From Candidatus Hydrogenedentota bacterium (GTDB lineage: Bacteria > Hydrogenedentota > Hydrogenedentia > Hydrogenedentales > JAEUWI01): a DNA stretch of 64,000 bases. Every line of letters begins with the position of its first letter. Position 1 is the first letter of the stretch. Positions 34,922-52,516 of this stretch are shown piece after piece. The notes below the pieces were generated by a model. It was given only the letters and a program-made list of their open reading frames with translations, made no database searches and was not told the origin of the DNA. Both the position numbers and the translations under genes were made by a program. Location of the stretch: NCBI GenBank assembly GCA_016182605.1, contig JACPGE010000036.1:62001-126000 (forward strand). The letters are read 5' to 3'.

Positions 34922-37900
34922 ATGCTCAGAAATATGCTGCTCGCCACATTGATCCTTCTCGCGTTCTTCGCGCCGCGGGGCTTCGCCGAAAATACCGAAC
35001 CCGCCGGGACCACGCTCTATGTTTCCAAACTGGGGAACCATACCGATGGCCTGAGCTGGTCCACGGCGTACAACACGATTCAGGCGGCCCTGGAGGCCGT
35101 GCCGGATGCGCGCGGCGGCCACCGCATTATCGTGCGGCCCGACACTTACATGGAGAACATGCTTACCCCGCGGCACAAGGGCGCGCAGGGCCGCTACAAC
35201 GAACTGATCGGCGACGTGGACGGCAAATACGGTTCGGGAACGACCGGCTGGTCCGTGCTCGACTGCGGCGATCCGGACAAGGGATTCAAGAGTTACGACT
35301 GGTTTGGTCCCATCCGTTCCAACGAACAGGGCTGGTCCAAGGACCACACCGATCCCACCTTTTCCGCCATTGACTGGGACCGCTGGAAACTCTCCAGCCT
35401 CTACGTGACCGGTGGGGACGCGGGGCTCTTCTGGGATCTCACGGATCAGGTGAAACCCTTCAGCGTCATTGTGGAGGATTCGGTGGGCATCGGGCGGGCC
35501 TTCGGCGGTGGTCTGGCGCATGCGTTGCCGCGCGCGGGTGAGCCGGTTATCTTCCGCCGCTGCAACCTGTGGGCCCTGGACTGGTGGGGCGACACGGCGG
35601 GCGCTTATGTGCGCTTCGAGAACGAAACGATGCCCGAGACGCCGGACATTCTGTTTGAGGGGTGCACCATGGTGAGCCCGCAGTGCGCGCTGAAAATGGG
35701 GAACTTTGGTTTCACCACCAGCACCCGGGTGCGGCTCGACGGGTGCACGCTGGCGGCGCTCAACTTCTCCCAGCCCCAGGGCACGCCGATCGACGGCGCG
35801 ATCCAGAGTGTGGAACAGGGCAAGTATGTCCACGTGGAGCTTCACGACACGACGGTGATGGGCTACAAGGTGCTTGGCGTGCGCGTGAACAAGGAAACCG
35901 TGAACGAGATGCAGTACACCGTCACCGGGAACTGCGCGGCCTACGTGCAGTTCCAGCAGGAGGTGCCCAAAGGCTTTTACCGGCTCCAGCAATGGCCGGT
36001 GGACCTCTTCCAGACCCTCTCGCCCCCTGCCATTGCGCGCCCCGCGGCCGCCCGCTATGGCGAGCGCAAGATCGTGCAGCGCGACCTCTGCGAGCTGTCC
36101 TCCGTGGTGTGGAAGGAAAAGCTCAGCCACATGGCATGCATCCGGCCCGCGAGCGGCGGCAACAAGGAGGACTACTACCTCGAACTGCGCGATGCGGCAT
36201 CGGGCGAAGTGCTGGCGAAGTTTGCCGAGGGCTACGGACTCGCGAGCGCCTTTGTGCACGACGGCACCTTCTATGCCTTTGCCTCGCGCTTTGAAGACGG
36301 CAACTGGAACGACGTGACCTGTTTCTGGTCGAAGGACCTGAAGCAGTGGGAACAGAAGGTGGTGATTGAGCAGGAGAACGAACATCTCTTTAACAGTTCC
36401 GTGTGCGCAGGCCCGGAGGGCTTTGTGCTCGCGTATGAATCGAACGACCCGGCCTACCCCGCCTTCACCACGAAGTTTGCCCAGTCCCCGGACCTCCAGC
36501 ACTGGACGAAGCTGCCGGAGGCCACCTTTGGCACGGACCGGTATACGGCGTGCCCGTGGATCCACCATGCGAACGGCTATTACTACGTGTTGTACCTGGA
36601 GAACCGGAAGCCCCGCCATTACTTCGAGACCTATATCACGCGATCGGCCGACCTGAAGCACTGGGAATTGAGCAGTGCGAACCCGGTGTTGTCGCCTCTG
36701 GGCCTGGACGAAGGCATCAACGCATCCGATCCCGACCTTGTTGAATTTGAGGGCCAGACCCTGTTGCATTATGCGGTGGGCGATCAGCTTACCTGGATGA
36801 ACATCAAGCAGACCACGTGGCCCGGAACACTGGCCGATTTCCTCGCGTCGTGGTATGCGGCGCCGGGCATTCCCGATCACGGCAGCGTCTCCGCGCCGGC
36901 GCCCGATCGCACGGCGTGGTTTCGGGATGCGAAGTTCGGCATCTTCGTGCACTGGGGCACCTACGCACTCCACGGCAAGAACGACAAGGGCGCGTATTCG
37001 TGTCTGGTGCTGCGCGACGAGGCGATTCCCCCGGCGGAGTACGAGGCGTACGCGGAGCAGTTCACGGCGGAGGAATTTGCGGCCAACGCCTGGCTGGCGC
37101 TGATGCAGCGGGCGGGGGCGCGCTATCTCACCTTCACCTCCAAGCACCACGACGGCTTCTCGATGTTCGATTCCAAACTGACGGACTACGACAGCGCGGA
37201 CCGGGCGGCGAAGAAGGACTTTGTGAAGGAACTGATTTACGCAGCGCAGCCCTTCGGCATCAAGGTCTCGCTGTACTACTCCATGCTCGATTGGCGCCAG
37301 CCGGACTTTGCGGCGGATTTGCCGAAGTACGTGAACGACTATCTTTTCGGTCAGGTGCGTGAACTGTGCACGAATTACGGTCCCATCGCGGGCATCTGGT
37401 TCGACGGCGAGTGGGACCACCCGGAAAGCACGTGGCGCGCAGAGGAACTGGTGAAGTTGATCCATGAATTGCAGCCCGCGGCCCTGGTGAACGATCGCCT
37501 GGGCAAGGGTGTGCGCGGTGAGACGACGCTGGCCGACTTCTATACGCGCGAGCAGCCTTCTGAGATCAATGAGGTCATGGCGTTTGAGGGGGCGCAAGCG
37601 CGGCCTTGGGAGGCCTGCATGACGATCGGCGAGTCGTGGGGCTACAACAAGCACGACACGAAGCAGAAGTCGAGCGCGGAACTGATCCGCATGCTGGTGG
37701 ACGTGGTGTCCCGTGGGGGCAACCTGCTGTTGAATCTGGACCCCACACCCGAAGGCACGATCATGGAGGTGCAGGCGGAGCGCCTGCGCGATATCGGCGC
37801 GTGGCTCGACGTGCACGGCGAGGCGATCTATGGAACGCGCAGTCTGCCGGCGTTGAAGATCGACGGCGCGAAAGCCACGGTGAAGGGGAGCCGCCTCTAC

Positions 37901-38110
37901 CTTCACGTGGAGGAGAACTCGGGCCAGATTGCCGGACTGAAGGGCCTCGAGAATCACGTGTCGCGCGCTTGGTTCCTGGAGACGGGCGAGGAAGTTGCCT
38001 GGAATGCGCAGGACGGCGTGATTACAGTGCCCAAAACGTTGCCCGACCCGGTGGTGTCGACCATCGTGCTGGAACTGGATGGGCCCGCGCGCGTGCGGGC
38101 CGCGAAGTAA
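34922..38110 (+). CDS. Secreted fusion of beta-helix, beta-propeller and GH29 alpha-L-fucosidase
   Basis: The 1062-residue protein starts with a signal peptide (LLATLILLAFFAPRGFA). Residues about 27-370 form a beta-helix-like domain (LYVSKLGNHTDGLSWSTAYN). Residues about 380-640 look like a GH43/GH32-type propeller (ASAFVHDGTFYAFASRF, WFSKDL-type blades). From residue 664 on lies a GH29 catalytic domain: WFRDAKFGIFVHWGTYA, YLTFTSKHHDGFSMFDS, LYYSMLDW and the nucleophile aspartate of GIWFDGEW near 827. It probably removes alpha-L-fucose from polysaccharides outside the cell. The next gene starts 5 bases later. Confidence 0.88.
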   Translation: MLRNMLLATLILLAFFAPRGFAENTEPAGTTLYVSKLGNHTDGLSWSTAYNTIQAALEAVPDARGGHRIIVRPDTYMENMLTPRHKGAQGRYNELIGDVDGKYGSGTTGWSVLDCGDPDKGFKSYDWFGPIRSNEQGWSKDHTDPTFSAIDWDRWKLSSLYVTGGDAGLFWDLTDQVKPFSVIVEDSVGIGRAFGGGLAHALPRAGEPVIFRRCNLWALDWWGDTAGAYVRFENETMPETPDILFEGCTMVSPQCALKMGNFGFTTSTRVRLDGCTLAALNFSQPQGTPIDGAIQSVEQGKYVHVELHDTTVMGYKVLGVRVNKETVNEMQYTVTGNCAAYVQFQQEVPKGFYRLQQWPVDLFQTLSPPAIARPAAARYGERKIVQRDLCELSSVVWKEKLSHMACIRPASGGNKEDYYLELRDAASGEVLAKFAEGYGLASAFVHDGTFYAFASRFEDGNWNDVTCFWSKDLKQWEQKVVIEQENEHLFNSSVCAGPEGFVLAYESNDPAYPAFTTKFAQSPDLQHWTKLPEATFGTDRYTACPWIHHANGYYYVLYLENRKPRHYFETYITRSADLKHWELSSANPVLSPLGLDEGINASDPDLVEFEGQTLLHYAVGDQLTWMNIKQTTWPGTLADFLASWYAAPGIPDHGSVSAPAPDRTAWFRDAKFGIFVHWGTYALHGKNDKGAYSCLVLRDEAIPPAEYEAYAEQFTAEEFAANAWLALMQRAGARYLTFTSKHHDGFSMFDSKLTDYDSADRAAKKDFVKELIYAAQPFGIKVSLYYSMLDWRQPDFAADLPKYVNDYLFGQVRELCTNYGPIAGIWFDGEWDHPESTWRAEELVKLIHELQPAALVNDRLGKGVRGETTLADFYTREQPSEINEVMAFEGAQARPWEACMTIGESWGYNKHDTKQKSSAELIRMLVDVVSRGGNLLLNLDPTPEGTIMEVQAERLRDIGAWLDVHGEAIYGTRSLPALKIDGAKATVKGSRLYLHVEENSGQIAGLKGLENHVSRAWFLETGEEVAWNAQDGVITVPKTLPDPVVSTIVLELDGPARVRAAK

Positions 38111-38114
38111 GGCC

Positions 38115-40085
38115 ATGTGCAGGCTGCATTCACTCGCTTGTCTGGGCTTGTTCCTGGCGGCCCTTCCTGCTTCCGCGGAAGACTTCGCCTCGGTGCCGAA
38201 CAAGGACGCCTGGCTACGGCATCCCGTCTATGGCGATGCGTCCTTCGACAACTTCACGCACCACCCGGGCAATCCGGTGTTGCGTGGCGCGCCGCCGCTG
38301 GAGTGGCCGGTGAACGGCTTTCTCTTCGAGGATCCCGTGAGCACGCACTGGTTTCTCTATGTGGGGCACTATCCCAAGGGCTACGCCATGAGCGATGCCG
38401 CGCCGTTCAGCGCAACGGTGTACCGTTCGGAGGATCGGGGTAAGCACTGGACGGATCTGGGTTCCATCTTTCCGCCGGAGGAGCACACCTTCGAGGGCGA
38501 GACCTCGCCCACCTGGTACGCGCCCGATGTGTCCGTGCTCTATGACGGCGGCAAGTACCACCTCGCCTACGACTGGGCGACGCGCAACACGGCGTGGAGC
38601 AATGCGGCCGCTCCCGGTCCTGAGGCGAACAACGGTTCGGGCTACGCCCGGGCGGAGCGGCCCGAAGGCCCCTATCACCGCACGGCACGGCCCGTCGCGG
38701 ACACCCGCAGCCAGCCACTGCTCCTCGGCAAGTACAAACGCCTCTACGCCTCCACGATTGTTCGCCGCGCGAAGGACTGGGTGGTCCTGGTCTTGACCGA
38801 TTCCGGGCCGCATTTCGGCTGGGGCTATCTGGGTTTTCGCGCCGACCGGCCCGAGGGCCCCTATGATGCGCCGGTAATGCTCCTGCATCCCGAGAAGGAC
38901 GGCTTTCATCCGCCGCTCATGGAGTTCCATCCAAGTTTTGTGCACGACGGCCACGTCTATGCGCCTGCCACGAGTGTGGCGCGGAACCGCAACTTTCAAA
39001 TGATCTGGCGCGCGCCGTTGGAGCGGATGCTTGAGCCTGGCGCGTGGGAGATCGTTCAGCATGGTTCGGTATGGCACGCGGAGCCCGTGGAACATGAGGC
39101 CCACGGTATCTGGGGGCAGGCCTTCTCCGGATTCATCGGCAGCGATGGCGCCTTCAACGTCATGTACCCCGCGCGCGACTCGGAAGGCATGGGCACGATC
39201 AACATTGCGTCCCGGCCTTGGACCGCGCCGTTCCGGGAACAGGGTTTCGTCGTGTCGGGACACCAGGGTGCGAGCATGGTGCGCCTGAAGCGCGCGGGCG
39301 CTTTCGATCGTTTGGCGCTGACGGGAACACTGCACGGCAAGGCCACCGTGATGTGGAATGCCCGAGGTCCCCTCGGGCCCGACGCGGCGAGTTCCGACGC
39401 GACGCTGCACGCGCTGATGCGCACCGCCTATGGCGGGATCGAGATTTCAGAGACGGCGTGGGCGCTGGTGGACGTGGACGCCGCGGGCACGCGCACGGTG
39501 ATCGCGGAGGGCGCGCTGAACGAACAGACCGCACGGCAGATTGAGGTGATGCCCACGGGGGCGGGGCAAGGCACGGTGCGCATCGATGGTGTGGCTTGTT
39601 ACGCCGGCGCGTTGCCGCAAGGCGACGGCACGATTGGACTGCTCGTGGAACCGTCGAGCCATCTCTTCGTGGAGCGCTTCGAAGTGGACGCTGCAAAAGA
39701 TCCCGCCCGCGTGCGATACCTGTACACGGAAGCCCTGCTGGGCGCGGCGCAGAAGATGGCCGATTGGGAAGTTCGGAAGGACGCGGGTTTTCTCTACGGT
39801 ACGGGCGCGATCTCCACTGATGCGGCGTGCGTCGCGAAGTGGAACTTTGAGGGCACTGGGTTTTCGGTTTATGCGCCTGCGGGTCCGGAATTGGGCACGG
39901 CAGAGATCCGTATCGATGGCGCAGTGGCGGGGACGGTGGATCTGAGGCGCGATACGGCGGAGGACTCGGCGGTGCGCTTCAGTAAGGACGGGCTCACGCC
40001 GGGTTTTCACGCGGTGACGGTGCGTCCGGCGATTGGGCGTATTGCAGTGGATGTGCTGGAGGTGGTGCTGGGGGTCAAATACTGA
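38115..40085 (+). CDS. Secreted GH43-like beta-propeller protein with C-terminal sandwich domain
   Basis: The 656-residue protein has a signal peptide (SLACLGLFLAALPASAE). Residues 45-400 resemble a five-bladed propeller (NGFLFEDPVSTHWFLYVGHY, TWYAPDVSVLYDGGKYHLAY, YASTIVRRAKDWVVLVLTDS). Their acidic residues at the blade starts fit GH43-type enzymes. Residues about 410-656 are two beta-rich domains such as carbohydrate-binding modules. It lies 5 bases after the GH29 fusion and probably works on the same polysaccharide. The family is judged from layout, so the substrate is open. Confidence 0.65.
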   Translation: MCRLHSLACLGLFLAALPASAEDFASVPNKDAWLRHPVYGDASFDNFTHHPGNPVLRGAPPLEWPVNGFLFEDPVSTHWFLYVGHYPKGYAMSDAAPFSATVYRSEDRGKHWTDLGSIFPPEEHTFEGETSPTWYAPDVSVLYDGGKYHLAYDWATRNTAWSNAAAPGPEANNGSGYARAERPEGPYHRTARPVADTRSQPLLLGKYKRLYASTIVRRAKDWVVLVLTDSGPHFGWGYLGFRADRPEGPYDAPVMLLHPEKDGFHPPLMEFHPSFVHDGHVYAPATSVARNRNFQMIWRAPLERMLEPGAWEIVQHGSVWHAEPVEHEAHGIWGQAFSGFIGSDGAFNVMYPARDSEGMGTINIASRPWTAPFREQGFVVSGHQGASMVRLKRAGAFDRLALTGTLHGKATVMWNARGPLGPDAASSDATLHALMRTAYGGIEISETAWALVDVDAAGTRTVIAEGALNEQTARQIEVMPTGAGQGTVRIDGVACYAGALPQGDGTIGLLVEPSSHLFVERFEVDAAKDPARVRYLYTEALLGAAQKMADWEVRKDAGFLYGTGAISTDAACVAKWNFEGTGFSVYAPAGPELGTAEIRIDGAVAGTVDLRRDTAEDSAVRFSKDGLTPGFHAVTVRPAIGRIAVDVLEVVLGVKY

Positions 40086-40136
40086 ACCGCGCCCTCCCAC
40101 GAAAGACCTTGTGAACAAGTGGGAAGAAAGTTCAAT

Positions 40137-40901
40137 CTATTTGTCAAGACAAGCAGAGTATTTTCCTACATCGATTGCAGGTACGGTGCCCATCTGTTGT
40201 AACACATGAAAGAGTCGGAGGAGAAACCACATTAATCCAGCATCTGGTTTGCTATACTTTAATTGGGGCTTGTCCTTGCTAGTTCCATCAAGTTCGAACG
40301 CACCATAATCTAAGATGCAGCCGAGATCGATTCTGTACTCATTGGATTTCGCAAGTTCTAGAACTTGAGTTTCGAATTTAGGGCCTAGTGGCGGGTTCCA
40401 TTGGCTTGTTGTGGTAAGAATGCCACCGACCACATGAAAAGGATTTTTAGGGGTAGCAACACCGTTCGCCGACTGAATGCGAACAGATGTTCGCTGCAAT
40501 CGCCGCACGGACGCGGCTTTCTCGGCAGCGTATTCCAAGTTTGCCTTATCTACGGATTGCTTAACTTCGAATACCGCGTATGCACTCTCAGCGGGAATAA
40601 AAAGGATATTATCACGCTTGAGAATAAATGGGCTGTACTGTGCGTCATAAACGACGACATCAATCTGATCGCTCTTGCAACCCGTGTGGTCAATAAGGAA
40701 GGCGCTTTCAATTCCGTAACGCCTTGGCAGGTAATTGCGCAAAATACCAAGCCAAATTGACTCAGTTGCAGAACCTTTGCAGCTAGGGTGGTGCAGATGC
40801 TGTCTGACAAGACCCTGCTCTGCACATACGACAGCCTGGTTGGCTACAAACAGGGATCGCAAATCCTGAAGGTCTTCACTACTCACAAACTTGCTCCTCA
40901 A
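40137..40901 (-). CDS. nucC: CBASS effector nuclease NucC
   Basis: The 254-residue protein matches NucC along its length. ATESIWLGILRNYLPRRYGI is followed by SDQIDVVVYDAQYSPFIL and IPAESAYAVFEVKQS. The restriction-type active site is Ile80-Asp81, exactly 30 residues, then Glu112-Val113-Lys114, the ID-x30-ExK motif known for NucC. NucC trimers bind cyclic tri-AMP, join into hexamers and cut double-stranded DNA, killing the infected cell. It overlaps the TRIP13 gene by 23 bases and is the last gene of the operon. Confidence 0.93.
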   Translation of the reverse strand: MRSKFVSSEDLQDLRSLFVANQAVVCAEQGLVRQHLHHPSCKGSATESIWLGILRNYLPRRYGIESAFLIDHTGCKSDQIDVVVYDAQYSPFILKRDNILFIPAESAYAVFEVKQSVDKANLEYAAEKAASVRRLQRTSVRIQSANGVATPKNPFHVVGGILTTTSQWNPPLGPKFETQVLELAKSNEYRIDLGCILDYGAFELDGTSKDKPQLKYSKPDAGLMWFLLRLFHVLQQMGTVPAIDVGKYSACLDK

Positions 40902-41811
40902 ATGGAGGCGTTGGTGGTGTCACGGAAAGAACTCTCATTGCAAGCTCGAGTGTTAAGGGCTTGTTCGGATAAGCATCAAGCACGCACCTTGGAAGTAGTC
41001 GTTGAATTATATCTGAAGAAGTGAACCCATAGGCACGTCCGTTTTGTGGCCCAGTGGCCAACGCGACAGTTTCAATTTCTTGGGCTGTAATTCCAGAGTG
41101 GGACAATGTTTGGCTTAACAAGGAGCGCCGTTGCTCTGTATTGGGGCGATTGAAACGGAAAATATCTGCTGCGCGTCGCCGAATAGCCGGATCGATTGCG
41201 TTAATCCGATTTGTACACAGAACTACTAGGATCGGGAGGCGGCTCTGCGCAATATCGTCGATGCCGCGTATGACGGCGTTAACCCCCGCCCTGTCTTCGT
41301 GGTGCATTTGGGAGTTCTCTCGGGACTGGGTCAAGGAGTCTGCCTCATCAACCAGAAGGATATGAACGCATCGAGGCTTGCCGGGGCCATTCTTCGAATT
41401 CTGAGCCAAGTGCTTCACTTGTGAGAAAGCTTGGGTCACAAGAGTGGTCATTTCTCCCACCACTCCAGTCCCGCGTGTTGTAAGACTCAGAATATGTAAC
41501 ATCGTATCAATATCGAGTTCCCTAGCGAGCTTATCACCAAATGATTCGGCTAGCGCCGTCTTGCCGGTTCCGACGTCCCCTGCGAAAATGAACATCGGCG
41601 CTCTGTCAAGTATTGTTTTCAGTATTGGTAATTCTATCCTATGAAATCGCGTGCTCCAATCCTTGAGGAGATTGGGATTAACGAGAAAGGCCGCCTCCTT
41701 TAGTAGTTGCGCCTTAATATCTTCTAGACCGATTAAACTTTCATAACGGCGTCGATAATCAGAATTCGGAAACTCAACCACGTCTTGAAAAATTCCATTT
41801 ACTTTACTCAT
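40879..41811 (-). CDS. cap6: TRIP13-like AAA+ ATPase (CBASS Cap6)
   Basis: The 310-residue AAA+ protein has Walker A GDVGTGKTA (residues 78-86), Walker B ILLVDEAD with Asp155-Glu156 and VLCTNRINAIDPAIRRRAAD as sensor and arginine-finger region. In type III CBASS this ATPase removes the HORMA protein from the nucleotidyltransferase and so switches signalling off. It begins one base after the HORMA stop and is followed by nucC. Confidence 0.93.
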   Translation of the reverse strand: MSKVNGIFQDVVEFPNSDYRRRYESLIGLEDIKAQLLKEAAFLVNPNLLKDWSTRFHRIELPILKTILDRAPMFIFAGDVGTGKTALAESFGDKLARELDIDTMLHILSLTTRGTGVVGEMTTLVTQAFSQVKHLAQNSKNGPGKPRCVHILLVDEADSLTQSRENSQMHHEDRAGVNAVIRGIDDIAQSRLPILVVLCTNRINAIDPAIRRRAADIFRFNRPNTEQRRSLLSQTLSHSGITAQEIETVALATGPQNGRAYGFTSSDIIQRLLPRCVLDAYPNKPLTLELAMRVLSVTPPTPPFEEQVCE

Positions 41812-41812
41812 T

Positions 41813-42331
41813 CTAGTATGCCCTGTAAGTTGATCGCTTTATGCCGACACCACCGGAATTGTAACTCTTGTCTGAGTACGTCCAGCACCCACTGCCAATG
41901 GCTGGAGGATCGCCAATGGTGCGTTTGATTGGCAAGATCTTCTTGATCTCTTCCTTTTCAAACAAAGAAAGCCGTTCCCACTTTTCACTATATGTAAGAA
42001 AGTTGAAGAAGTTCTCGTTGCCAGTCAAATTTGCGGAAGATATTATCGAGCCTGGATCATCATCTGCCTTTATTGTTCCGTCTTCGCAAACGTCATACTG
42101 AACTGAGAAAATACGGGTATTGTTGGACTCAAAACCAAAGTCGAAAGACTTGACGTAACCGTCTTTGAGTAAGAGCGCCAGTTCTTCTGCTAGGTTCTCA
42201 ATGTGTTGCTGACTGGGTTTGTCATAATAGAGATTACATAGGTGTAAGTCTGCTGCTATCTTTGATGTCAGGTACCGCGCGTGTGTAAGTGTAAAAACCG
42301 ATGTTGTGGTAAAGGATACTGTCGCAGACAT
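41813..42331 (-). CDS. cap7: Bacterial HORMA-domain protein (CBASS Cap7)
   Basis: The 172-residue protein has the bacterial HORMA family 1 pattern: TTTSVFTLTHARYLTSKIAA, a conserved FGFESNNTRI segment and FFNFLTYSEKWERLSLFEKE. Its C-terminal tail DKSYNSGGVGIKRSTYRAY looks like the self-binding closure motif. In the closed state such proteins sense phage proteins and activate the neighbouring CD-NTase. It sits between the cyclase and TRIP13 genes with gaps of 3 and 1 bases. A single HORMA gene implies the one-HORMA form of type III CBASS. Confidence 0.9.
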   Translation of the reverse strand: MSATVSFTTTSVFTLTHARYLTSKIAADLHLCNLYYDKPSQQHIENLAEELALLLKDGYVKSFDFGFESNNTRIFSVQYDVCEDGTIKADDDPGSIISSANLTGNENFFNFLTYSEKWERLSLFEKEEIKKILPIKRTIGDPPAIGSGCWTYSDKSYNSGGVGIKRSTYRAY

Positions 42332-42334
42332 AAA

Positions 42335-43303
42335 TTAAACTCCAAATGACGGCCCAAGGACCGCCTTCCAGCAATCAACTGCCCGTTCTCTTGTTGTGGC
42401 GTAGCGAGCCTCTGCCAATTTTTCAAGACTTCTTTCCGCACATTGGACAATGCGGATCCTAACCGTATCGTCGTAGTCCTGCGCAATATTATTGTCTGGA
42501 TTAACAGGATCAAAGATCTGAATCGGATCGACGATAGAATTCCGTATTTGCGATATCGAATAATAGTCGGAGAAGCTTATGCGCTTCTTAAGCTGCGATC
42601 GGACGATGTATTTGAAAACAGACTCCATTGCGTTGGGATAATCAGAGAATTCCGTGCCCTGGTCCAGAAGTTCAGCAGTTATCATTTCGGCCATGAACGA
42701 CTTAAATCGAAAATTGCTGTCTAGCTGTTTTTGAGATCTTCCCCACCATTTTATCAGTCGAATAATTTGCGCAAAATGAATGGGTTTCAAGGACTTTCGG
42801 CATCGAATGAATCTTAAATGAAGCGGGATACTGGTTAATACGCGGTTTCCCGAATCGCGGGCATATAAATAGCCTCGATCATCGGGAGCACCTTCGTAGT
42901 AGACTGGAACGACGTCAACATCGAGCCCACTACCGCTAAAAGAGATTCGCACACAATGACGTCCCGGGGATATTTTGTCAGGAGCTATATTTGGGTATGC
43001 TTCTCGAAGGCGCTGTGCTAACCAATCAACCAAGTCATCTATTCGTGAAGGCGCAATCTTGCTCTCGACGTATAGCGCTACATCAATATCATTTAAGGTC
43101 TTTAGGGCGGTGCCCTTCGCGAGACTTCCAGACAGTAACATTTTTACAAGGCCGTGATTCGGGTGGGTGTCGATAAAGCTTCCAATATTTTCTCTTAACC
43201 GTCCAACTTGCTCTCGATATTCTTTTGCATCGTTACGATGAAGGTTAACCTTTGTCTCTGCAAAATAGACCAAGTCAGAATGTGTCACATAGCCGTTTGC
43301 CAT
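42335..43303 (-). CDS. cdnC: CD-NTase cyclic oligonucleotide synthase of type III CBASS
   Basis: The 322-residue nucleotidyltransferase has the active site LLSGSLAKGTALKTLNDIDV: Gly59-Ser60 followed by Asp72 and Asp74. The third metal-binding acid lies in GLDVDVVPV (Asp128 or Asp130). The C-terminal helical core (RLIKWWGRSQKQ) fits CD-NTases. With HORMA, TRIP13 and NucC next door it should make cyclic tri-AMP, which argues for the C clade, but clade D cannot be excluded from motifs alone. Ribosome site AGGAGG precedes ATG 43303. It is the first gene of the operon. Confidence 0.9.
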   Translation of the reverse strand: MANGYVTHSDLVYFAETKVNLHRNDAKEYREQVGRLRENIGSFIDTHPNHGLVKMLLSGSLAKGTALKTLNDIDVALYVESKIAPSRIDDLVDWLAQRLREAYPNIAPDKISPGRHCVRISFSGSGLDVDVVPVYYEGAPDDRGYLYARDSGNRVLTSIPLHLRFIRCRKSLKPIHFAQIIRLIKWWGRSQKQLDSNFRFKSFMAEMITAELLDQGTEFSDYPNAMESVFKYIVRSQLKKRISFSDYYSISQIRNSIVDPIQIFDPVNPDNNIAQDYDDTVRIRIVQCAERSLEKLAEARYATTRERAVDCWKAVLGPSFGV

Positions 43304-43324
43304 TGATGGGCCTCCTAGAATCTG

Positions 43325-43378
43325 TTAGCACTCACTCGCGCTGAGTGCCAGTATACTGAAAATTTTATCCCCTGTCAA
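43325..43378 (-). promoter_or_regulatory. Sigma-70 promoter of the CBASS operon overlapped by a CIRCE (HrcA) operator
   Basis: On the minus strand TTGACA (43378-43373) and TATACT (43355-43350) are 17 bases apart, a near-consensus promoter. Directly behind it, on plus coordinates 43325-43351, lies TTAGCACTC, a 9-base spacer and GAGTGCCAG. The CIRCE consensus is TTAGCACTC-N9-GAGTGCTAA, so the left arm is perfect, the right arm matches 7 of 9 and the spacing is exact. The operator covers the expected transcription start and ends 22 bases before the CD-NTase start codon, the position used by HrcA at heat-shock operons. Confidence 0.82.
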
Positions 43379-43736
43379 TAGACAATAATGCTAAAAACTA
43401 TTTCTTTTGGCCTTACTTATCGAATCATTTAAGGGGAAATTAGAAGGCATCCATTTAGCTGCGGGAAGTAGAAATTCTCGTCCTAAGTGCTGCTCAGAAT
43501 GTTCAAGGATTCGAGATGTCATTATTGCACAGGTATTGGAGATTCTTGGCCTAATTCAAGACCCTCGCGCTTATATGGTCCAATTGCGTGCTACTGAGAT
43601 AGGTGGTATTGCGCCGCTTGCCAATCGGACGATACTTTTGGAGTGTTTGAATTGGCTAACGCTTGTCGACTATCTGTCACTGCGTATTGAAGCCTATGAC
43701 AAAGCGTCGCGTGGTAATCGAATTGCGGAAGGTGCC
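43379..43736. other. AT-rich stretch without a convincing gene
   Basis: A plus-strand frame starting with TTG (43407-43814, 135 residues) is open but has no ribosome site and no recognisable motif, and it runs into the opposing small membrane-protein gene. I therefore see no supported feature here apart from the CBASS promoter at its left edge. Confidence 0.4.
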
Positions 43737-44021
43737 TTAATTCGAGTTATCGTTCTTCGATGCAATAAGCACGCCTGCAGCGGTAGTAACGACTGTTATC
43801 GTCCATTGAATTAAAAGTCGCGTGGTGTCGATTCTCACCCCAGAACGCACTAAAGAATTCTTGGGCTTTGGTGGATTAAAAATTGCCCAATAGCCACCTA
43901 TATCTTCCCGGGTTGCGCCCGTGCCCTTAAACGTGAAGAGCCAAGGCGGGTAGACGCCCATGCATATAAATATCACTGCGCCGACCAAGATTATGCGTTT
44001 TTGTCTGGAGTTCAGAATCAC
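43737..44021 (-). CDS. Small two-helix membrane protein
   Basis: The 94-residue frame has RQKRIILVGAVIFICMGVYP followed by PWLFTF as helix 1, then GGYWAIFNPPKPKNSLVRSG as a short exposed loop. LLIQWTITVVTTAAGVLIAS forms helix 2. The WAIFNPPKP and GVRIDTTRLLIQW pieces resemble small uncharacterised membrane proteins common in diverse bacteria. I chose GTG 44021, preceded by GAGGG. A longer TTG start at 44054 is possible. It is adjacent to the CBASS island and may have arrived with it. Confidence 0.55.
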   Translation of the reverse strand: MILNSRQKRIILVGAVIFICMGVYPPWLFTFKGTGATREDIGGYWAIFNPPKPKNSLVRSGVRIDTTRLLIQWTITVVTTAAGVLIASKNDNSN

Positions 44022-44656
44022 GGCTGAGCACCCTCGCGATTGATGCGGTGTCAAAATCGACAGATACTACCGATTGTCTATTTCAATTAAAGTGCTTCTC
44101 GGGGCGATTTGCCAAATCCATAGGAGCTTGGATAATGGCCAAACTTGGGCCGATTTGTCAAGCGGTCCGCGCCGTAAACATCAGCGCCAACTGCGGCGAT
44201 ATGCGCGTGCCGTCCATAAACTGGCACGATGCTCGACGAGTGCCGTGAACTTCGGCCTGAGTGCATTTCCACATCGGTGATCCATCAGCCCCCGGCACTG
44301 CACCAAAACCGCCAATGCCTACGCTCATCGAGCGAAGGCCTACAGTGGCTGGTATTGGGGGGTTAACTGGCACGCCGGGTCGAGCATTGTAAAGGTTTAA
44401 CACAAACGAAGCGGAGCTTCGGGGACTGAATTCCCAATCAGAGCTTTGGAACGAGGATCTTTATGTAAATAATGAGCTTAATAATAAATTTGTAGAATTT
44501 GCTCTGTAATTACCCCTCGTTTCGCACCGCGACCACATGGCGTCTCGTAACCACCATTCTTCCTGATGCTCCTTGGATTTCATGCGATGCAATTCCAAGA
44601 CATATGTATAAAGTGGCCTTGTCTTCGCTTCCCCAAGACCAAGTAGATTGCGGACG
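44022..44656. other. 635 bases with no recognisable gene
   Basis: Short frames on both strands lack ribosome sites and domain features. A small hairpin CGAAGC-GGA-GCTTCG lies near 44407-44421. Base composition is lower in GC than the genes to the right, as in the CBASS region, so this may be decayed island DNA. Confidence 0.4.
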
Positions 44657-47296
44657 TCACTCCGCCGATTTCGCGTGCTGGGATTTGTCGCCGCTGTCGA
44701 AGTAGTAGTTGTTCTTGGGGCCGAACCAGCCGACGGACCAGCGTGCGTTGGAGGCGAAGTAGGCGTTTTGTTCGGGGGCCCATTCCCACTCTTCACTGCT
44801 GACGTGGCCGTCTGCCCAGACGACGTTCACGCGGCCATAGTGGCGGAAGTGCAGGCTTGGCGAGAGGAAGCCGAATTCGTCCTGTCCATGAGGGTGATCA
44901 TGGCTGGCGTAGAAGGGCGGCTCAAGAAATCCATACTCGATCACGTAGCCATTCTGCGGCAAGGCGGCATCGGCAAACATGAGGGTCTCGCCGGGATGCG
45001 CCACACGCACGTCGAGCACGCCCTGGCGCACGGCCTGGATGGGGTCTTCGTTCAGGAATTGCGTCGATCCGATATAGGTCATGTTGTAGCCATAGCCGCC
45101 GGTGCCGGATTCGAAGGCGTTGTTGGTGGCTTCTTTGTCCTGGAACTCGAAAAATTCCGGGCAGGTCTTTACCCGGCCATCAGTGAGGTACTCGGCAAGC
45201 GGGCCGCGGCTGGGATCGAATTCGGAGTTGTCGTTGGGCGTTGCGCGTTCACCGTGCCAGCGGACGCGGCCACCGACGTTGCCGGGCTGGGCTCCGGGCA
45301 GCATGAAGTCGAAGAGGTCTTGGGCGGCCGGCACGTAATGGCCGCCGTTCTCCGCAGCGTACATGGTGTTGGCGAGGTAGAGCTGGCGCAGGTTGTTCAC
45401 GCATTGCATGGACTTGGCCTGGGCGCGCGCGCGGCTCAGCGCGGGGAGCAGGATGGCGGCGAGCACGGTGATGATGGCGATGACGACGAGCAGTTCCACC
45501 AGGGTGAAGGCGTGTTCCCTGTTGCGTCGAGCACGCGGAGCGCCGCGGCGGGAATTGCGCAAGCGCGCCATTCCCAAGACGGCGCATGCCCCCACGAGCA
45601 CCAACAGACCAGCGCCCTGTAGCGCGGGCAAATCCACCACGGCCAGGGAGAACGCGGCATTGCCCAACGTGAGATCTTGCGCGGGGCTGTCATACACGGC
45701 GACCTCCAGGTCGACGAGTTCCGCGTCTTCCATGTAAACGACTTGCACCGTCGCACTGCCCTCTTGCAGGGCCACCTGGAAGCCGGGATCGGTGTTGTTC
45801 GCGTCGGGCGTCAGAATCGCTGCCCCAAAGATCGTCACGGTCAGTTCGTGACCATCCAGGACCAGGTTGCCGCCGTTATCGCGCGCCGGGCCGATGTAGA
45901 CGTTGAGGGGCGCGTCGCGCTCCGCATGGGGCGGCGCGGTGATGGGCACGGGCGCGACGGGATAGCCGGTGGAGGCCAATACGAAGACGCCGGGATAGCG
46001 GGTGGTGAAGGAAAGGGTATTCGCCGTGGTATCGAGCGAGAGGGCGTCGATGCCGTCTTGCGTGTAGGCCCCATCGGCAAAGCGCCACGGCACGAGCCCC
46101 GCTTCGATGAGTCCCGCGATTTCTCCATCGGCGTAGGTGATCGTCATTGCCGCGGGCGCGATCTGGGCCCCGGTGAAGTCTGCGGTGGAGGCGTCGAAGG
46201 TGCGCACGGCGGTGCTGCGCATGCGCCCGGGAATGACGCCGCCAGGATCGGCGCCGCCGCTCAGATCGACGGACGCGTTGAAATCGCGCAGGCCATCACG
46301 CAGCCCCGTCGAGATCAGGGTCACGGTGGTGCCGAGGGCGTCGGAGACGGCTCCCAGTACAGCCGCTGCCGGGCTGCCGCCCTCTTCCAGGGGAATCTCC
46401 AGGGCGAGCACGGTGCTTTCCGCGCGCAGGGGATCGGTTCCGGCAACACGCGTTTCGTATTCATCGAGAATGCCGTCGCCGTCGGTGTCGATTGCGGGGG
46501 CGACATCGGCCACCGCGTCGATCTCCGGTGTGATGGGGCCGAAGGCCGCGTTCACCCCGGTGAGGAAGGACCAGATGCGCACGAAGTGGATCTCGGTCAG
46601 GTTCGCAGGCGCGCCCACGCCGTTCACGGCCCAGGCGATGTCGAAGGCATCCCCCCCGCCGCTACGCGGAGTAAGGCCGATCAGCATGGGGTCGTCGGGC
46701 CGCACATAGTTGTCGAGGTATTCCTGTTGCGTGGGTGTGAGTTCGGCGTAGCCCCAGTCGAATTCCGCGTCATCGTTGCCGCTGTCCATGTCGGTGACGT
46801 TGGGGTTTTGCAGGTTGCCCGAGAGGGCGGGCGCGGGGTTGTCGATGCCACCGGGCACGGCGCTCTGGGGGATGCTGCGGCTGCCGGGCATGACATACCA
46901 CGCATCGTCCGCGAGGCCGTTGCCGTTTGCGTCGCGGCTGATCTCCACCAGGGCCGGTTCCGTGAAGCGGATGGTGGAATCGCCGCCGGTCCAGAATGCG
47001 TTGCTGTAGACGATAAAATCTAGGCCCAGGGGGTTGGCGGCATCGTCGGTAATCGGCGTGTCGAAGGCGAGCGTGATAAAGCTGCCGGTCGTGCCGATGG
47101 AGGCGACGCCAGTGTTGTTGGGGCTTGCGGTGGTGCCGCCCGAAGGCGCCCCCACGGCGTCCAACGGATCTTCAAAGCCCGGATTGGGGTTCGTGATGCT
47201 GTGCGCGAGCAACGCGTCCGCCCACGGGTCTTCCCCGTGCGCCGCGTGCGCTCCCAGGCACAAGAGCAGGCCCAAGGCCCACACCCTGCGATTCAT
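44657..47296 (-). CDS. Riboswitch-controlled surface protein fused to a type IV-like prepilin
   Basis: The 879-residue protein starts at ATG 47296, six bases after GGAGG, with a signal peptide ([18 protein letters not shown]). Residues 30-270 resemble the surface domain seen near B12-uptake genes of Bacteroidetes ([43 protein letters not shown]). [13 protein letters not shown] calcium loop and beta domains follow, then a helix ending [10 protein letters not shown] at about 553-583. A full prepilin comes next: [20 protein letters not shown] at about 594, and [11 protein letters not shown] near the end. No stop or good internal start separates the parts. Confidence 0.78.
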
Positions 47297-47445
47297 GGCC
47301 ATCCTCCAAGTCAGGCACGGCGCTGCCGCAGCCTGCATGTTGGAGGAGAAAGTGACTGGAGCGCCGCGAGGATCCGAAGAAGGGCGCTACCGGCCGTTTC
47401 CCCTCGAAACGGTACTGGCGCCATCGCGCCGCCCTGACGCAATGG

Positions 47446-47641
47446 AACCCTGGCAGGTCTTCGGACTTGCAAGTGAACACGCCATGGCGCGTTCCGCCAC
47501 TCCGCTTCCCAGTTTGTTCCAAACCAGTGCGATCATGAGTGGGTTGCCCTTGCTTACCGCTGCGGGGCAGTTCCGGAATTTCACCGGATTCCCTCTTCGC
47601 CCGTGCCACCAATGCGGGGACACGGGAACCAGAGCCGGGAT
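47446..47641 (-). ncRNA. Cobalamin (B12) riboswitch
   Basis: Read on the minus strand, the region contains the conserved core of adenosylcobalamin riboswitches: GAAGAGGGAATCCGGTGAA, then ATTCCGGAACTGCCCCGCAG followed by CGGTAA, and near the 3' end the B12-box region AAGTCCGAAGACCTGCC (47469-47453). It lies 150 bases upstream of the 879-residue surface protein on the same strand, and no other gene intervenes. Ligand binding should lower expression of that protein when B12 is plentiful. Confidence 0.95.
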
Positions 47642-47642
47642 T

Positions 47643-47672
47643 AGTATAGGGGGGAGGATGGGGATTTGTCCA
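47643..47672 (-). promoter_or_regulatory. Promoter in front of the cobalamin riboswitch
   Basis: On the minus strand TGGACA (47672-47667) and TATACT (47648-47643) are 18 bases apart, placing transcription start near 47636, right at the 5' edge of the riboswitch. Confidence 0.75.
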
Positions 47673-47778
47673 GTGCTTTCAGGCACCGGGAACCGGGCCC
47701 TTGTCGAGCACATTTTTGTCCGCGGGATTGACAAGCCGGTGGGACTCCCCGGGTGCGGGGACCCTGCGGAAGCCATCG

Positions 47779-49371
47779 TTACATGGATTGTGTGGATTCG
47801 AGTGCGGGGTTGCGCACGGCAATGGTGGGGCGCGGGAAGTGGAGGGTGAAGGAGGTGCCTTTGCCGATCTCGCTTTGGACGTCCACCTTGCCGCCGTGCT
47901 GTTCGACGACGCTGAAGCAGACGGCCAGGCCGAGACCGGTGCCGCGGCTGTTCTTGGTGGTGAAGAAGGCCTGGGAGATGAGGGGGATTTGTTCTTTCGG
48001 TATGCCGATGCCGTTGTCGCGAACGCGGAGGTAGGTGCCCATCAGATTCTGCCACAGGGAAAACTCGATGAGGCCATCCGTGCGATCTTGCAGGGCGTCG
48101 ATCGCGTTCTCGATGAGGTTCAAGAGGACCCGGTAGATCTCCTGGCCGTCCAGGTCGATCATTTCCATCTGCCGGGATTCGTACGCGACGGTGATGCCGC
48201 GCTGGCGGGTCTTGGGGCCGGTGGCCTCGATCACTTCTTCGATGAGGCTGTGCAGGCTGGTGGGCTGGGGGTTCAGGTGGGTCTTGCGCGCGTAGGTCAG
48301 CAGATCGTTGACGAGCCCTTCGAAACGATCGAGGGCCTTTTGCATGGTGCACAGGCCGCGCTTGCTGCGTTCGAAGTCCTGTGCCTGGACGGCGATTTGC
48401 ACCATTTCCGCGCCGCCCTTGATCCCGGTGAGGATATTGCGCATGTCATGGCTGGTGCCGGAGACGGCTTCGCCAATGGCAGCGAGACGCTCCTGGTGGA
48501 TCTTTTCGTCGGCGAGCCGCCGGTTCTCGAGTCCCACCCCGATCATTTGGCCGAGGATGGTCAGGAGGTGGAAGTCTTCGGTGCGGAAGGGGGGTGGCAT
48601 TGCGCAACTGTCGAGATAGAGTGCGCCGAAGGAGAAATTTGGCCCGGAAACGGGAACGCAGATGGCGGCCTTGATCTGGAAGTTGATGATGCTGTCGGAG
48701 GCTTCGAAGCGTTCGTCGGCCTCGGCGTCGTTGGTGAAGACGGCGCTCCGGGTTCGCAGCACATGATCCACGAGCGTTCTGCTGTAGCGGCTTACGCCCT
48801 GTTCCCCACTCCGGGTCAGGCCGGACGTCACCTCAATGTGGTGGTTCTCTTCGCTGAAACGGAGCAGATAGCACTGATCGGCGGGAAAGGCTTTGAGCAC
48901 CACTTCGAGGATCTGCCGGATGAGCCCCTGAAAGCTGCTGCGCGAGGTCAATATCTGGGAGATGCGGTAGAGCACGGTGAGGGGTGTGCTCTCGTCGTTG
49001 GTGATGATGTGGCGGTGAAGTTTGGTGATGGCTTCAAAGGGAATCTGCGCCTCGGCTTCGGGGTAGGATTCGAAGTGCTCGATTTTCTTGAAAAGCACAT
49101 AGTAGACGCCCACGGTGACCGAATCGTTTTCATCGAGCCGGGCGCATTTCACCGGCTCGCCGTTCACCAGCACGCCATTGCGCGATCCGAGGTCCTGGAT
49201 ATTGAGCGCCCCATCTTCGACGAAAAGCTTGGCATGGCGCCGCGAGATGCGCTCATCCAGGAGGATAAGGTCCACTTCGGGGGCACGCCCAATGATGATG
49301 GGGTCGGCAGCAACCTGAACGTAGTTGCATTCTTCCAGATCCTTGAGGAATTGCACGTGGAAACACGCCAT
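47779..49371 (-). CDS. Sensor histidine kinase with FHA and GAF domains
   Basis: The 530-residue cytoplasmic kinase starts with an FHA domain (PIIIGRAPEVDLILLDERIS, then RRHAKLFVEDGALNIQDLGS with RNGV), a phosphothreonine-binding module. A GAF domain (about 135-285) follows. The HisKA box SGTSHDMRNIL has its phospho-accepting histidine near 308. The HATPase domain shows NLIENAIDAL, DNGIGIP and GTGLGLA. No membrane helix is seen, so the signal is internal, perhaps relayed by a Ser/Thr kinase. No response regulator is adjacent. ATG 49371 is chosen because the FHA domain starts directly after it. Confidence 0.9.
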   Translation of the reverse strand: MACFHVQFLKDLEECNYVQVAADPIIIGRAPEVDLILLDERISRRHAKLFVEDGALNIQDLGSRNGVLVNGEPVKCARLDENDSVTVGVYYVLFKKIEHFESYPEAEAQIPFEAITKLHRHIITNDESTPLTVLYRISQILTSRSSFQGLIRQILEVVLKAFPADQCYLLRFSEENHHIEVTSGLTRSGEQGVSRYSRTLVDHVLRTRSAVFTNDAEADERFEASDSIINFQIKAAICVPVSGPNFSFGALYLDSCAMPPPFRTEDFHLLTILGQMIGVGLENRRLADEKIHQERLAAIGEAVSGTSHDMRNILTGIKGGAEMVQIAVQAQDFERSKRGLCTMQKALDRFEGLVNDLLTYARKTHLNPQPTSLHSLIEEVIEATGPKTRQRGITVAYESRQMEMIDLDGQEIYRVLLNLIENAIDALQDRTDGLIEFSLWQNLMGTYLRVRDNGIGIPKEQIPLISQAFFTTKNSRGTGLGLAVCFSVVEQHGGKVDVQSEIGKGTSFTLHFPRPTIAVRNPALESTQSM

Positions 49372-49498
49372 GGAAACCCGACACCTTCCTGGGTACCGGC
49401 TCTTCGCAGGGCACCCACGACACAGCACTTCTCCCGGCTATGGTCCTCGGTCGCATGGATGAGGGCCACCTGGCAACAGTTTTATGGGCTTGCAGCAA

Positions 49499-49683
49499 CT
49501 ACACCTCCATTCTATCCAACATTTATGGTTTTGGCAACCAGATAAATGGATTATACTGAACGAAGAACCGGTTTCTAGATAAATTATTGTCAAAGTTCAT
49601 AATAAAAATTCGCTAAATTAGAATATAGATAAAAATTTATTCCCGTGTATCGGATGATACACGTGCAGCCGCCATACAGGAAA
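49499..49683. other. AT-rich intergenic stretch
   Basis: The stretch is much richer in A and T than the flanking genes, especially 49540-49640, and holds no gene. It contains a short hairpin CGTGTATC-GGAT-GATACACG at 49644-49663, which on the minus strand is followed by a T-rich tract and could be a second terminator for ppdK. The kinase promoter may also lie here. Confidence 0.4.
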
Positions 49684-49715
49684 GGCCCTCCGATTCAGAT
49701 TAGAACCGGAGGGCC
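49684..49715 (-). terminator. Rho-independent terminator of ppdK
   Basis: A 9-base stem (GGCCCTCCG 49684-49692 with CGGAGGGCC 49707-49715) lies 26 bases after the ppdK stop. Read on the minus strand it is followed by TTTCC. The T run is short but position and stem are good. Confidence 0.7.
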
Positions 49716-49741
49716 CGATAGCGCTCCATGGGGAACGCGGA

Positions 49742-52516
49742 CTACTTCTTTTTCGACTTGGCAGCTTTGCCCTTGGTCTTCTTGCCGGCCTTCTTGGCAG
49801 CCTTGCGGGGCGACTCGATGGCGGCCTGTGCCGCGGCCAGACGGGCGATCGGCACGCGGAAGGGGCTGCAGCTTACGTAGTTCAGTCCGGCGCGGTGGCA
49901 GAACTTGACGGAGCTGGGTTCGCCGCCGTGTTCACCGCAGATACCGACTTTGAGGGAGGGGCGGGCGCTGCGGCCACGGGTGACGCCCATCTCGACGAGC
50001 TGGCCGATACCGTCCTGGTCGAGGACCTGGAAGGGATCTTTCGGGAGGATGTCTTCCTTGAGGTAGATGGGCATGAAGCCGCCGACGTCGTCGCGGCTGA
50101 AGCCGAAGCCCATCTGGGTGAGGTCGTTGGTGCCGAAGCTGAAGAACTCGGCGTCTTCCGCGATCTTGTCTGCGATGAGGCAGGCGCGCGGAATTTCGAT
50201 CATGGTGCCGACCATGAAGTCGAGCTTCTTGAGCTTATAGGCCGCTTTCACTTCTTCCGCGACGCGGCGCACGATGGCGGCCTGGTTCTTGTATTCGTTC
50301 TGGTGTCCCACGAGGGGGATCATGATTTCCGGGAAGACCTTGACGTTCTTCTTGCCGAGTTCAGCGGCCGCTTCGAGGATGGCGCGGACCTGCATTTCGG
50401 TGATTTCCGGATAGGCGATGCCGAGGCGGCAGCCGCGGTGGCCGAGCATGGGGTTCAGCTCGTGCAACTGCTGGATCCGGCCCTTGACGCGATCGACCGT
50501 GATGCCCACATGCTTGGCCATCTCGGCGATCTGCTTTTCGTCGAGGGTGACGAATTCGTGGAGGGGCGGATCGAGGAGGCGGACGGTGACGGGCTTGCCG
50601 GCCATGGCCTGGAAGATGCCGATGAAGTCGCTCTTCTGGAAGGGGAGGAGCTTCATGACGGCGGCGCGGCGCGCTTCTTCCGTTTCGCTCAGGATCATTT
50701 CGCGGACGTAGATGATGCGTTCGGGTTCGAAGAACATGTGTTCGGTGCGGGCGAGCCCGATCCCTTCGGCGCCGAAGGCAATGGCCTGCTTTGCGTCGGA
50801 GGGGGATTCGGCGTTGGTGCGCACGTTGAGGTCACGGCGCTTGTCGGCCCATTCCATGATGGTCTTGTACCACTTGTTCTTTTCCGGCTGGGCGGGCAGC
50901 ACGTTGACGGCGCCGAGGAAGAGAATGCCGGAGGTGCCGTTCAGGGAGATCCAGTCGCCTTCCTTGATGGTGGTGTCGCCGGCGACGGCCTGTTTTTTGC
51001 GCGAATCGATGTTGAGCGCGCCGCAACCCACGATGCAGCACTTGCCCCAGCCGCGCGCCACGAGGGCCGCGTGGCTCGTCATGCCGCCCTTTGCGGTGAG
51101 GATGCCTTCGGCCACGTGCATGCCGTGCACGTCTTCGGGCGAGGTTTCATTGCGCACGAGAACGACCTTCTTGCCCTGCTTCGCCCAGGCGTCGGCGTCG
51201 TCCGCCGTGAAGACGGCCTGGCCGACCGCGCCGCCGGGGCCGGCGGGAAGACCTTTCGCGAGGGTCTTGGCGGCCTTCTCTGCTGCGGGGTCGAGCATGG
51301 GGTGGAGGAGTTCATCGAGCTGCTCCGGCTTGACGCGCATGAGGGCCTTGTCCTTGTCAATGAGCTTCTTCTCGGCCATTTCCACCGCGATACGGATGGC
51401 GGCGAAGCCGGTGCGCTTGCCGGTGCGGGTCTGGAGCATCCAGAGTTCGCCGTTTTCGACGGTGAACTCGATGTCCTGCATGTCGGTGTAGTGCTTTTCC
51501 AGCTTGCAGCGGATGGCGTAGAGTTTCTTGTAGACCTTCGGCCACTGTTCTTCCAGCGAGAGCACGGCCTTCTGGTCGGGGGTCTTGGAGGCCTTGTTCA
51601 CCGGGGAGGGGGTGCGGATACCCGCGACCACGTCTTCGCCCTGGGCGTTGACGAGCCATTCGCCGTAGAAGGCGTCTTCGCCGGTGGCCGGGTTGCGCGT
51701 GAAGGCCACGCCGGTGCCGGAGGTGTCGCCCATGTTGCCGAAAACCATGGCCTGCACGTTTACGGCGGTGCCCCAGATTTCGGGGATGCCTTCGATGCGG
51801 CGGTAGGCGATGGCGCGCTTGCCGCGCCAGGACTGGAAGACGGCCTTGATGCCGCCTTCGAGCTGTTTGTCGGCGTCGTCCGGGAAGGGCTTGCCCAGCA
51901 CCTTTTTGGTGAGCGTCTTGAATTCATCGCACAGTTCCTTGAGGTCCTGCACGGTCATGCCGGTGTCTTCCGTAACGCCACGGGCCTTTTTCTTGGCGTC
52001 CATTGCGTGTTCCATCTGCTCGCGGATGGTGTGGCCGTCGCCATGCTCGACACCGGCCGCCTTCTCCATCACCACGTCGGCATACATCATGATGAGGCGC
52101 CGGTAGGCGTCATAGGCGAAGCGTTCATCGCCCGACTTGGCGATGAGGCCCGGGAGGGTCTTTTCGCAAAGGCCGACGTTCAGCACGGTGTCCATCATGC
52201 CCGGCATGCTCATGCGCGCGCCGGAGCGCACGGAAACGAGCAGGGGGTTCTTGGGATCGCCGAACTTCTTCCCCATCACCTTTTCGACGCGGCCGAGGGC
52301 CTTCTTGTACTCGCCGATCACTTCCTTGGGCAGGCTGCCCTTGTGCTTGTAGTATTCGGTGCAGACTTCCGTCGTAATCGTGAAGCCGGCTGGCACGGGG
52401 ATGCCGTTGCAGGCCATGTCGGCCAGGTTCGCACCCTTGCCGCCCAGGAGATTCTTCATCGAAGCATCGCCGTCGGCCTTGCCGCCACCAAAAAAATACA
52501 CGTTCTTCTTGGCCAT
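49742..52516 (-). CDS. ppdK: Pyruvate, phosphate dikinase
   Basis: The 924-residue enzyme interconverts pyruvate, ATP and phosphate with phosphoenolpyruvate, AMP and diphosphate. It shows LLGGKGANLADMACNGIPVP, SVRSGARMSMPGMMDTVLNV, the phosphohistidine motif GGMTSHAALVARGWGK (His near 480) and the PEP-domain motif GTNDLTQMGFGFSRDD. HRGCRLGI and CGEHGGEPSS complete the C-terminal barrel. Start ATG 52516 follows GGAGAG. The last 20 residues form a Lys/Ala-rich tail (KAAKKAGKKTKGKAAKSKKK) not usual in PPDK. It points to gluconeogenic or PPi-linked glycolytic metabolism. Confidence 0.97.
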   Translation of the reverse strand: MAKKNVYFFGGGKADGDASMKNLLGGKGANLADMACNGIPVPAGFTITTEVCTEYYKHKGSLPKEVIGEYKKALGRVEKVMGKKFGDPKNPLLVSVRSGARMSMPGMMDTVLNVGLCEKTLPGLIAKSGDERFAYDAYRRLIMMYADVVMEKAAGVEHGDGHTIREQMEHAMDAKKKARGVTEDTGMTVQDLKELCDEFKTLTKKVLGKPFPDDADKQLEGGIKAVFQSWRGKRAIAYRRIEGIPEIWGTAVNVQAMVFGNMGDTSGTGVAFTRNPATGEDAFYGEWLVNAQGEDVVAGIRTPSPVNKASKTPDQKAVLSLEEQWPKVYKKLYAIRCKLEKHYTDMQDIEFTVENGELWMLQTRTGKRTGFAAIRIAVEMAEKKLIDKDKALMRVKPEQLDELLHPMLDPAAEKAAKTLAKGLPAGPGGAVGQAVFTADDADAWAKQGKKVVLVRNETSPEDVHGMHVAEGILTAKGGMTSHAALVARGWGKCCIVGCGALNIDSRKKQAVAGDTTIKEGDWISLNGTSGILFLGAVNVLPAQPEKNKWYKTIMEWADKRRDLNVRTNAESPSDAKQAIAFGAEGIGLARTEHMFFEPERIIYVREMILSETEEARRAAVMKLLPFQKSDFIGIFQAMAGKPVTVRLLDPPLHEFVTLDEKQIAEMAKHVGITVDRVKGRIQQLHELNPMLGHRGCRLGIAYPEITEMQVRAILEAAAELGKKNVKVFPEIMIPLVGHQNEYKNQAAIVRRVAEEVKAAYKLKKLDFMVGTMIEIPRACLIADKIAEDAEFFSFGTNDLTQMGFGFSRDDVGGFMPIYLKEDILPKDPFQVLDQDGIGQLVEMGVTRGRSARPSLKVGICGEHGGEPSSVKFCHRAGLNYVSCSPFRVPIARLAAAQAAIESPRKAAKKAGKKTKGKAAKSKKK

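Follow-up and report, generated by a model that had tools for sequence, protein, structure and literature searches.

A CIRCE element at a CBASS promoter suggests that certain bacteria link antiviral immunity with protein-folding stress

What controls an abortive-infection operon whose promoter carries what looks like the operator of a heat-shock repressor? This question is raised by a 64-kb window (the whole stretch of DNA analysed here), which corresponds to positions 62,001–126,000 of contig JACPGE010000036.1 from a Candidatus Hydrogenedentota bacterium (GCA_016182605.1). On its minus strand, from 43303 down to 40137, profile matches identify a complete type III CBASS in the order CD-NTase, HORMA, TRIP13, NucC. 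The first gene (42335–43303) specifies a CBASS CD-NTase, an oligonucleotide cyclase of 322 aa (PADLOC cyclase PDLC00808, E 2e-120), in which an alignment reveals the nucleotidyltransferase motif GSLAKGT...NDIDV together with a third Asp (LDVDVVP). It is followed by a Cap7-like CBASS HORMA protein of the bacHORMA_1 family (41813–42331; Pfam PF18138, E 2.5e-42), by a Cap6-like, TRIP13-like AAA+ ATPase (40879–41811; PDLC00914, E 3e-118) whose translation has unbroken Walker motifs (GDVGTGKT and ILLVDEAD), and by a NucC effector endonuclease (DUF6602; 40137–40901; PDLC00745, E 6e-87; Pfam PF20247), for which a TTG start was assumed and whose translation contains an unbroken active-site-like IDVVVYD...FEVKQ. 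All four genes lie on the minus strand, and both their identity and their order are those of type III CBASS with NucC (CD-NTase, HORMA/Cap7, TRIP13/Cap6, NucC).

The initial annotation had placed a near-consensus promoter ahead of this operon and, covering its start site, a CIRCE-like inverted repeat with an exact 9-base spacer; both descriptions hold. The promoter, on the minus strand, consists of a −35 hexamer TTGACA (43373–43378) and a −10 hexamer TATACT (43350–43355) separated by 17 nt, with matches at 11 of 12 positions. The CIRCE element, a predicted HrcA operator assigned to neither strand, occupies 43325–43351 and reads in full TTAGCACTC-ACTCGCGCT-GAGTGCCAG on the plus strand (TTAGCACTC-N9-GAGTGCCAG), or CTGGCACTC-N9-GAGTGCTAA along the direction of CBASS transcription. 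Set against the CIRCE pattern TTAGCACTC-N9-GAGTGCTAA, it is identical at 16 of 18 arm positions and differs at the other two, and its spacer is exactly 9 nt long. The 27-bp repeat covers the predicted start site and includes the last two bases of the −10 hexamer, a 2-nt overlap that is mirrored at the groES sites of both the window genome and Methylomonas methanica. Downstream of the repeat come the ribosome-binding site AGGAGG (43311–43316, minus strand), 7 nt upstream of the start codon, and then the CD-NTase ATG at 43303. No other site with three or fewer mismatches occurs in the 64-kb window, and dinucleotide shuffles of it yield 0.01 on average. The off-consensus arm pair CTGGCACTC/GAGTGCTAA is found again at the promoter of hrcA in Methylomonas methanica (L099) and in another genome from the window's phylum (L239), and is therefore an accepted CIRCE variant.

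For such an element to function as an operator, the genome should encode HrcA and should use the same site at its chaperone operons, as the initial annotation had proposed. We searched the window genome (6.76 Mb in 130 contigs, 97.9% complete) by pattern and by family. It has a single copy of hrcA (PF01628, E 4e-52) and just four CIRCE-like sites with three or fewer mismatches: one ahead of hrcA-grpE-dnaK (0 mismatches), one ahead of groES-groEL (1 mismatch), one ahead of a second groEL (1 mismatch) and the one at CBASS (2 mismatches). Across 68 genomes of the phylum, sites with two or fewer mismatches numbered 159, versus 2 for a reversed control pattern; all 50 of the sites examined in the other genomes precede hrcA, groES or groEL, and the window genome is the only one of the 68 with four CIRCE sites. 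The CBASS element thus resembles those of the class I heat-shock regulon (CIRCE-controlled groESL and hrcA-grpE-dnaK): the 27-bp element is the same, it is likewise positioned across the −10 and start, and its genome has hrcA. However, the operons of that regulon specify chaperones and heat-shock regulators, whereas the operon controlled here would be an abortive-infection immune system.

The operon itself is foreign to its surroundings. It lies in a 5-kb stretch of 44–54% GC flanked by DNA of 62–67% GC, and no CBASS homologue was found in the 67 other genomes of the phylum; it is therefore an acquired island. The absence of homologues also means that the phylum offers no footprinting and no orthologues that could reveal selection on the site. 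Mis-binning of the contig is argued against by a housekeeping gene on it that is 72–79% identical to those of same-family genomes. Upstream of CBASS within the low-GC island are a plus-strand ORF (43407–43814) that has no Pfam or PADLOC match and a small minus-strand ORF (43737–44054); both are possibly island remnants.

To place the arrangement among its relatives, we scanned 84,980 species genomes with an alignment, which yielded 180 CD-NTase relatives, and kept the best 80. CIRCE at CBASS is a rare arrangement, since it is missing upstream in 79 of these best 80 of the 180 relatives (at least five mismatches, as by chance) and from all 17 plasmid CBASS promoters examined, even though hrcA is present in 53 of the 80 hosts. 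Relatives that carry the operon without the repeat had been named at the outset as a finding that would tell against HrcA control, and taken literally that is what the 79 loci are. The objection loses force, however, because the nearest kin of the window CBASS belong to genomes in which hrcA was not found (L016–L018 and the Phycisphaerales L020–L022 and L039) and which therefore could not use CIRCE, and because the element has been gained twice independently, as set out below. One further locus close to the window CBASS, L019, is in a genome with hrcA and has no CIRCE. Most relatives have a different kind of regulator at hand: a CapH/CapP-like pair or a WYL gene, controllers of immune operons that are described as DNA-damage responsive (PMC13373217), adjoins 61 of the best 80 of the 180 loci. 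The window has neither and carries the CIRCE element instead; tblastn with CapH, CapP and WYL queries against window positions 36001–50000 gave no match, and no gene for another regulator was recognised next to the operon.

A second CBASS with CIRCE was found in another phylum, in Methylomonas methanica NCIMB 11130 (L041), whose genome also contains hrcA (PF01628, E 9.5e-69). Here the element is perfect (18 of 18 arm positions) and lies 100 bp before the CD-NTase ATG, 3 nt past the promoter TTGACT-N17-TATAGT. Exactly four CIRCE sites are present in this genome, at CBASS, groE, rpoH and hrcA-grpE-dnaK, against none for the reversed control. The rpoH site (G068:C87:3413-3439, L098) has 1 mismatch and precedes a sigma factor gene that we read as rpoH, an assignment that would put a sigma-32 type response under HrcA in this organism. 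A WYL gene is located 0.8 kb upstream of the Methylomonas CBASS, with another ORF between, and nucleotide similarity of the locus to plasmids starts only at the CD-NTase start. Among 301 genomes of the Methylococcales, the only homologue is a remote one (34%) that lacks CIRCE. In a maximum-likelihood tree the CD-NTases of the window and of Methylomonas fall into separate, strongly supported groups; since these groups are distant and the hosts belong to different phyla, we conclude that the element was gained twice. The survey covered one CBASS type and gave two CIRCE-bearing cases in total. This convergent recurrence of the combination is the strongest point, and two independent gains argue strongly against chance.

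We consider it very likely, judging from the sequences, that HrcA together with GroEL represses CBASS and that overload of GroEL derepresses it. The mechanism that joins HrcA, GroEL and CIRCE is taken from the literature, in which full DNA binding by HrcA needs GroEL and unfolded protein titrates GroEL, so that CIRCE operons are derepressed (PMC6032397, PMC8762339); binding of HrcA at CBASS, induction of the operon and a benefit against phage are what we infer from it. In the unstressed cell, GroEL would keep HrcA competent for binding, and HrcA, bound to CIRCE across the −10 and start, would block RNA polymerase. Unfolded protein, produced by heat or by a load of phage proteins, would take up GroEL and bring HrcA off the DNA, and CBASS would then be made along with hrcA-grpE-dnaK, groES-groEL and the second groEL. 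Killing would still require that the CD-NTase be activated by a phage cue by way of HORMA. CIRCE would accordingly set the dose and timing of CBASS rather than serve as its trigger, and heat alone would lead to readiness, not to killing. According to one report, heat-shock proteins can rise on phage infection (PMC8125068). In Campylobacter with phages encoding a GroES-like chaperone, heat-shock regulons are repressed (PMC4534711), and phages may therefore also counter the folding-stress input. The fuller proposal is that CBASS genuinely belongs to the HrcA/CIRCE regulon, that this membership arose convergently in two phyla, and that chaperonin overload induced by phage raises the dose of CBASS so that immunity is gated by proteostasis; to this we would give an even chance.

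The main alternative has the HrcA–CIRCE step in common with this proposal and differs in purpose alone. HrcA may bind merely as a convenient off-switch, a newly arrived toxic island having taken over an operator of the host, drawn from a groE or hrcA promoter, such that heat or phage would induce the operon only incidentally and to no advantage. In its favor, the operon, at 44–49% GC against 62–67% in the surrounding DNA, sits in a low-GC island absent from the 67 other genomes of the phylum, the operon has no regulator of its own, and CIRCE is missing from the nearest CBASS kin. However, any HrcA site is inducible by folding stress by construction, and that such a site was gained independently on two occasions suggests usefulness; moreover, the N9 spacer and flanks are unlike those of the genome's own hrcA and groE sites, and the promoter does not have the look of a transplant. 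We regard the off-switch as possible but unlikely.

Other alternatives dispense with HrcA altogether. The repeat might be the operator of a different repressor, its resemblance to CIRCE being accidental, as its two off-consensus arm positions could indicate; we find this very improbable, because the identical two differences occur at hrcA promoters, the Methylomonas copy is perfect, and the window operon has no other recognised regulator gene beside it. Even less credible is a 5′ mRNA hairpin acting on stability or translation in place of a DNA operator. Part of the repeat would indeed fall at the 5′ end of the transcript, but because of the overlap with the −10 the left arm lies partly ahead of the predicted start, so that a hairpin in the RNA would be incomplete, and the arms fit a DNA operator for which the genome encodes the repressor. 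That the resemblance to CIRCE arose by chance is scarcely conceivable. With 0.14 sites of two or fewer mismatches expected at random per whole genome of this size, one stray could occur; the probability of an equally good site within 100 bp of a given promoter is nevertheless ~2e-6 for the window and ~1.5e-9 for the perfect site at the Methylomonas CBASS promoter, and each of the two sites overlaps or directly adjoins a near-consensus promoter, ahead of the same type of operon and in a genome that bears hrcA. Repression of CBASS by HrcA, relieved when GroEL is overloaded, thus remains our preferred reading.

CIRCE also occurs in viral sequences, as a separate matter from CBASS. A single-protein search of viral contigs with the CD-NTase gave nothing, an alignment search of them gave only two loci, both without upstream DNA, and no CBASS CD-NTase was found in phage records. 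Exact CIRCE elements, on the other hand, are present in 104 viral contig stretches (L105–L208, IMG/VR), versus one for a control palindrome with shuffled arms, and 103 of 114 viral sites are intergenic. About twenty precede hsp20 genes as judged by eye (five are HSP20 by Pfam) and further sites precede groES; phages seem to have their own chaperone genes controlled by the host HrcA switch. Tandem or paired exact CIRCE elements also lie ahead of uncharacterised genes on viral contigs (L129:5375-5548, L193:379-473, L140:7037-7100, L154, L158 and L175), with L129 having four such sites at a spacing of 49 bp, of which one has a single mismatch. Several of these tandem loci come from large rumen-type contigs, and they may be viral operators that respond to HrcA or to a repressor of the virus itself. 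Many phages depend on host GroEL or supply a co-chaperonin themselves. Because of this dependence, and because CIRCE stands ahead of hsp20 and groES in phages, one switch may govern both the immunity of the host and the chaperones of the phage.

CBASS and the CIRCE/HrcA system are each of a known kind, and their combination appears to be new. The initial annotation knew of no described CBASS under HrcA, and our literature search, which covered freely accessible full-text papers other than preprints, found no paper that treats CBASS and HrcA together and none that joins CIRCE, HrcA and phage defense. Targets of HrcA beyond chaperones have likewise been proposed from CIRCE-like sequences for chlamydial and other extended HrcA regulons (PMC8762339), whereas no paper was found that joins HrcA with CBASS. 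CapH/CapP, CapW/BrxR and CapK/CapS (PMC13373217) are similar in that they too are transcriptional repressors seated over an immune promoter and released by stress, but their genes adjoin the operon, and what they sense is DNA damage in the form of single-stranded DNA. Whereas the described families of CBASS regulators adjoin the operon and are DNA-damage responsive (PMC13373217), the regulator here would be a heat-shock repressor of the core chromosome, which would sense folding load by reading how heavily the chaperonin is loaded. That Methylomonas methanica NCIMB 11130 is cultivable and not a pathogen makes the idea directly testable. Some bacteria thus appear, on the evidence of their promoters, to tie antiviral immunity to protein-folding stress, and if this is true, folding stress would constitute a second sensing input for immune operons, beside DNA damage.
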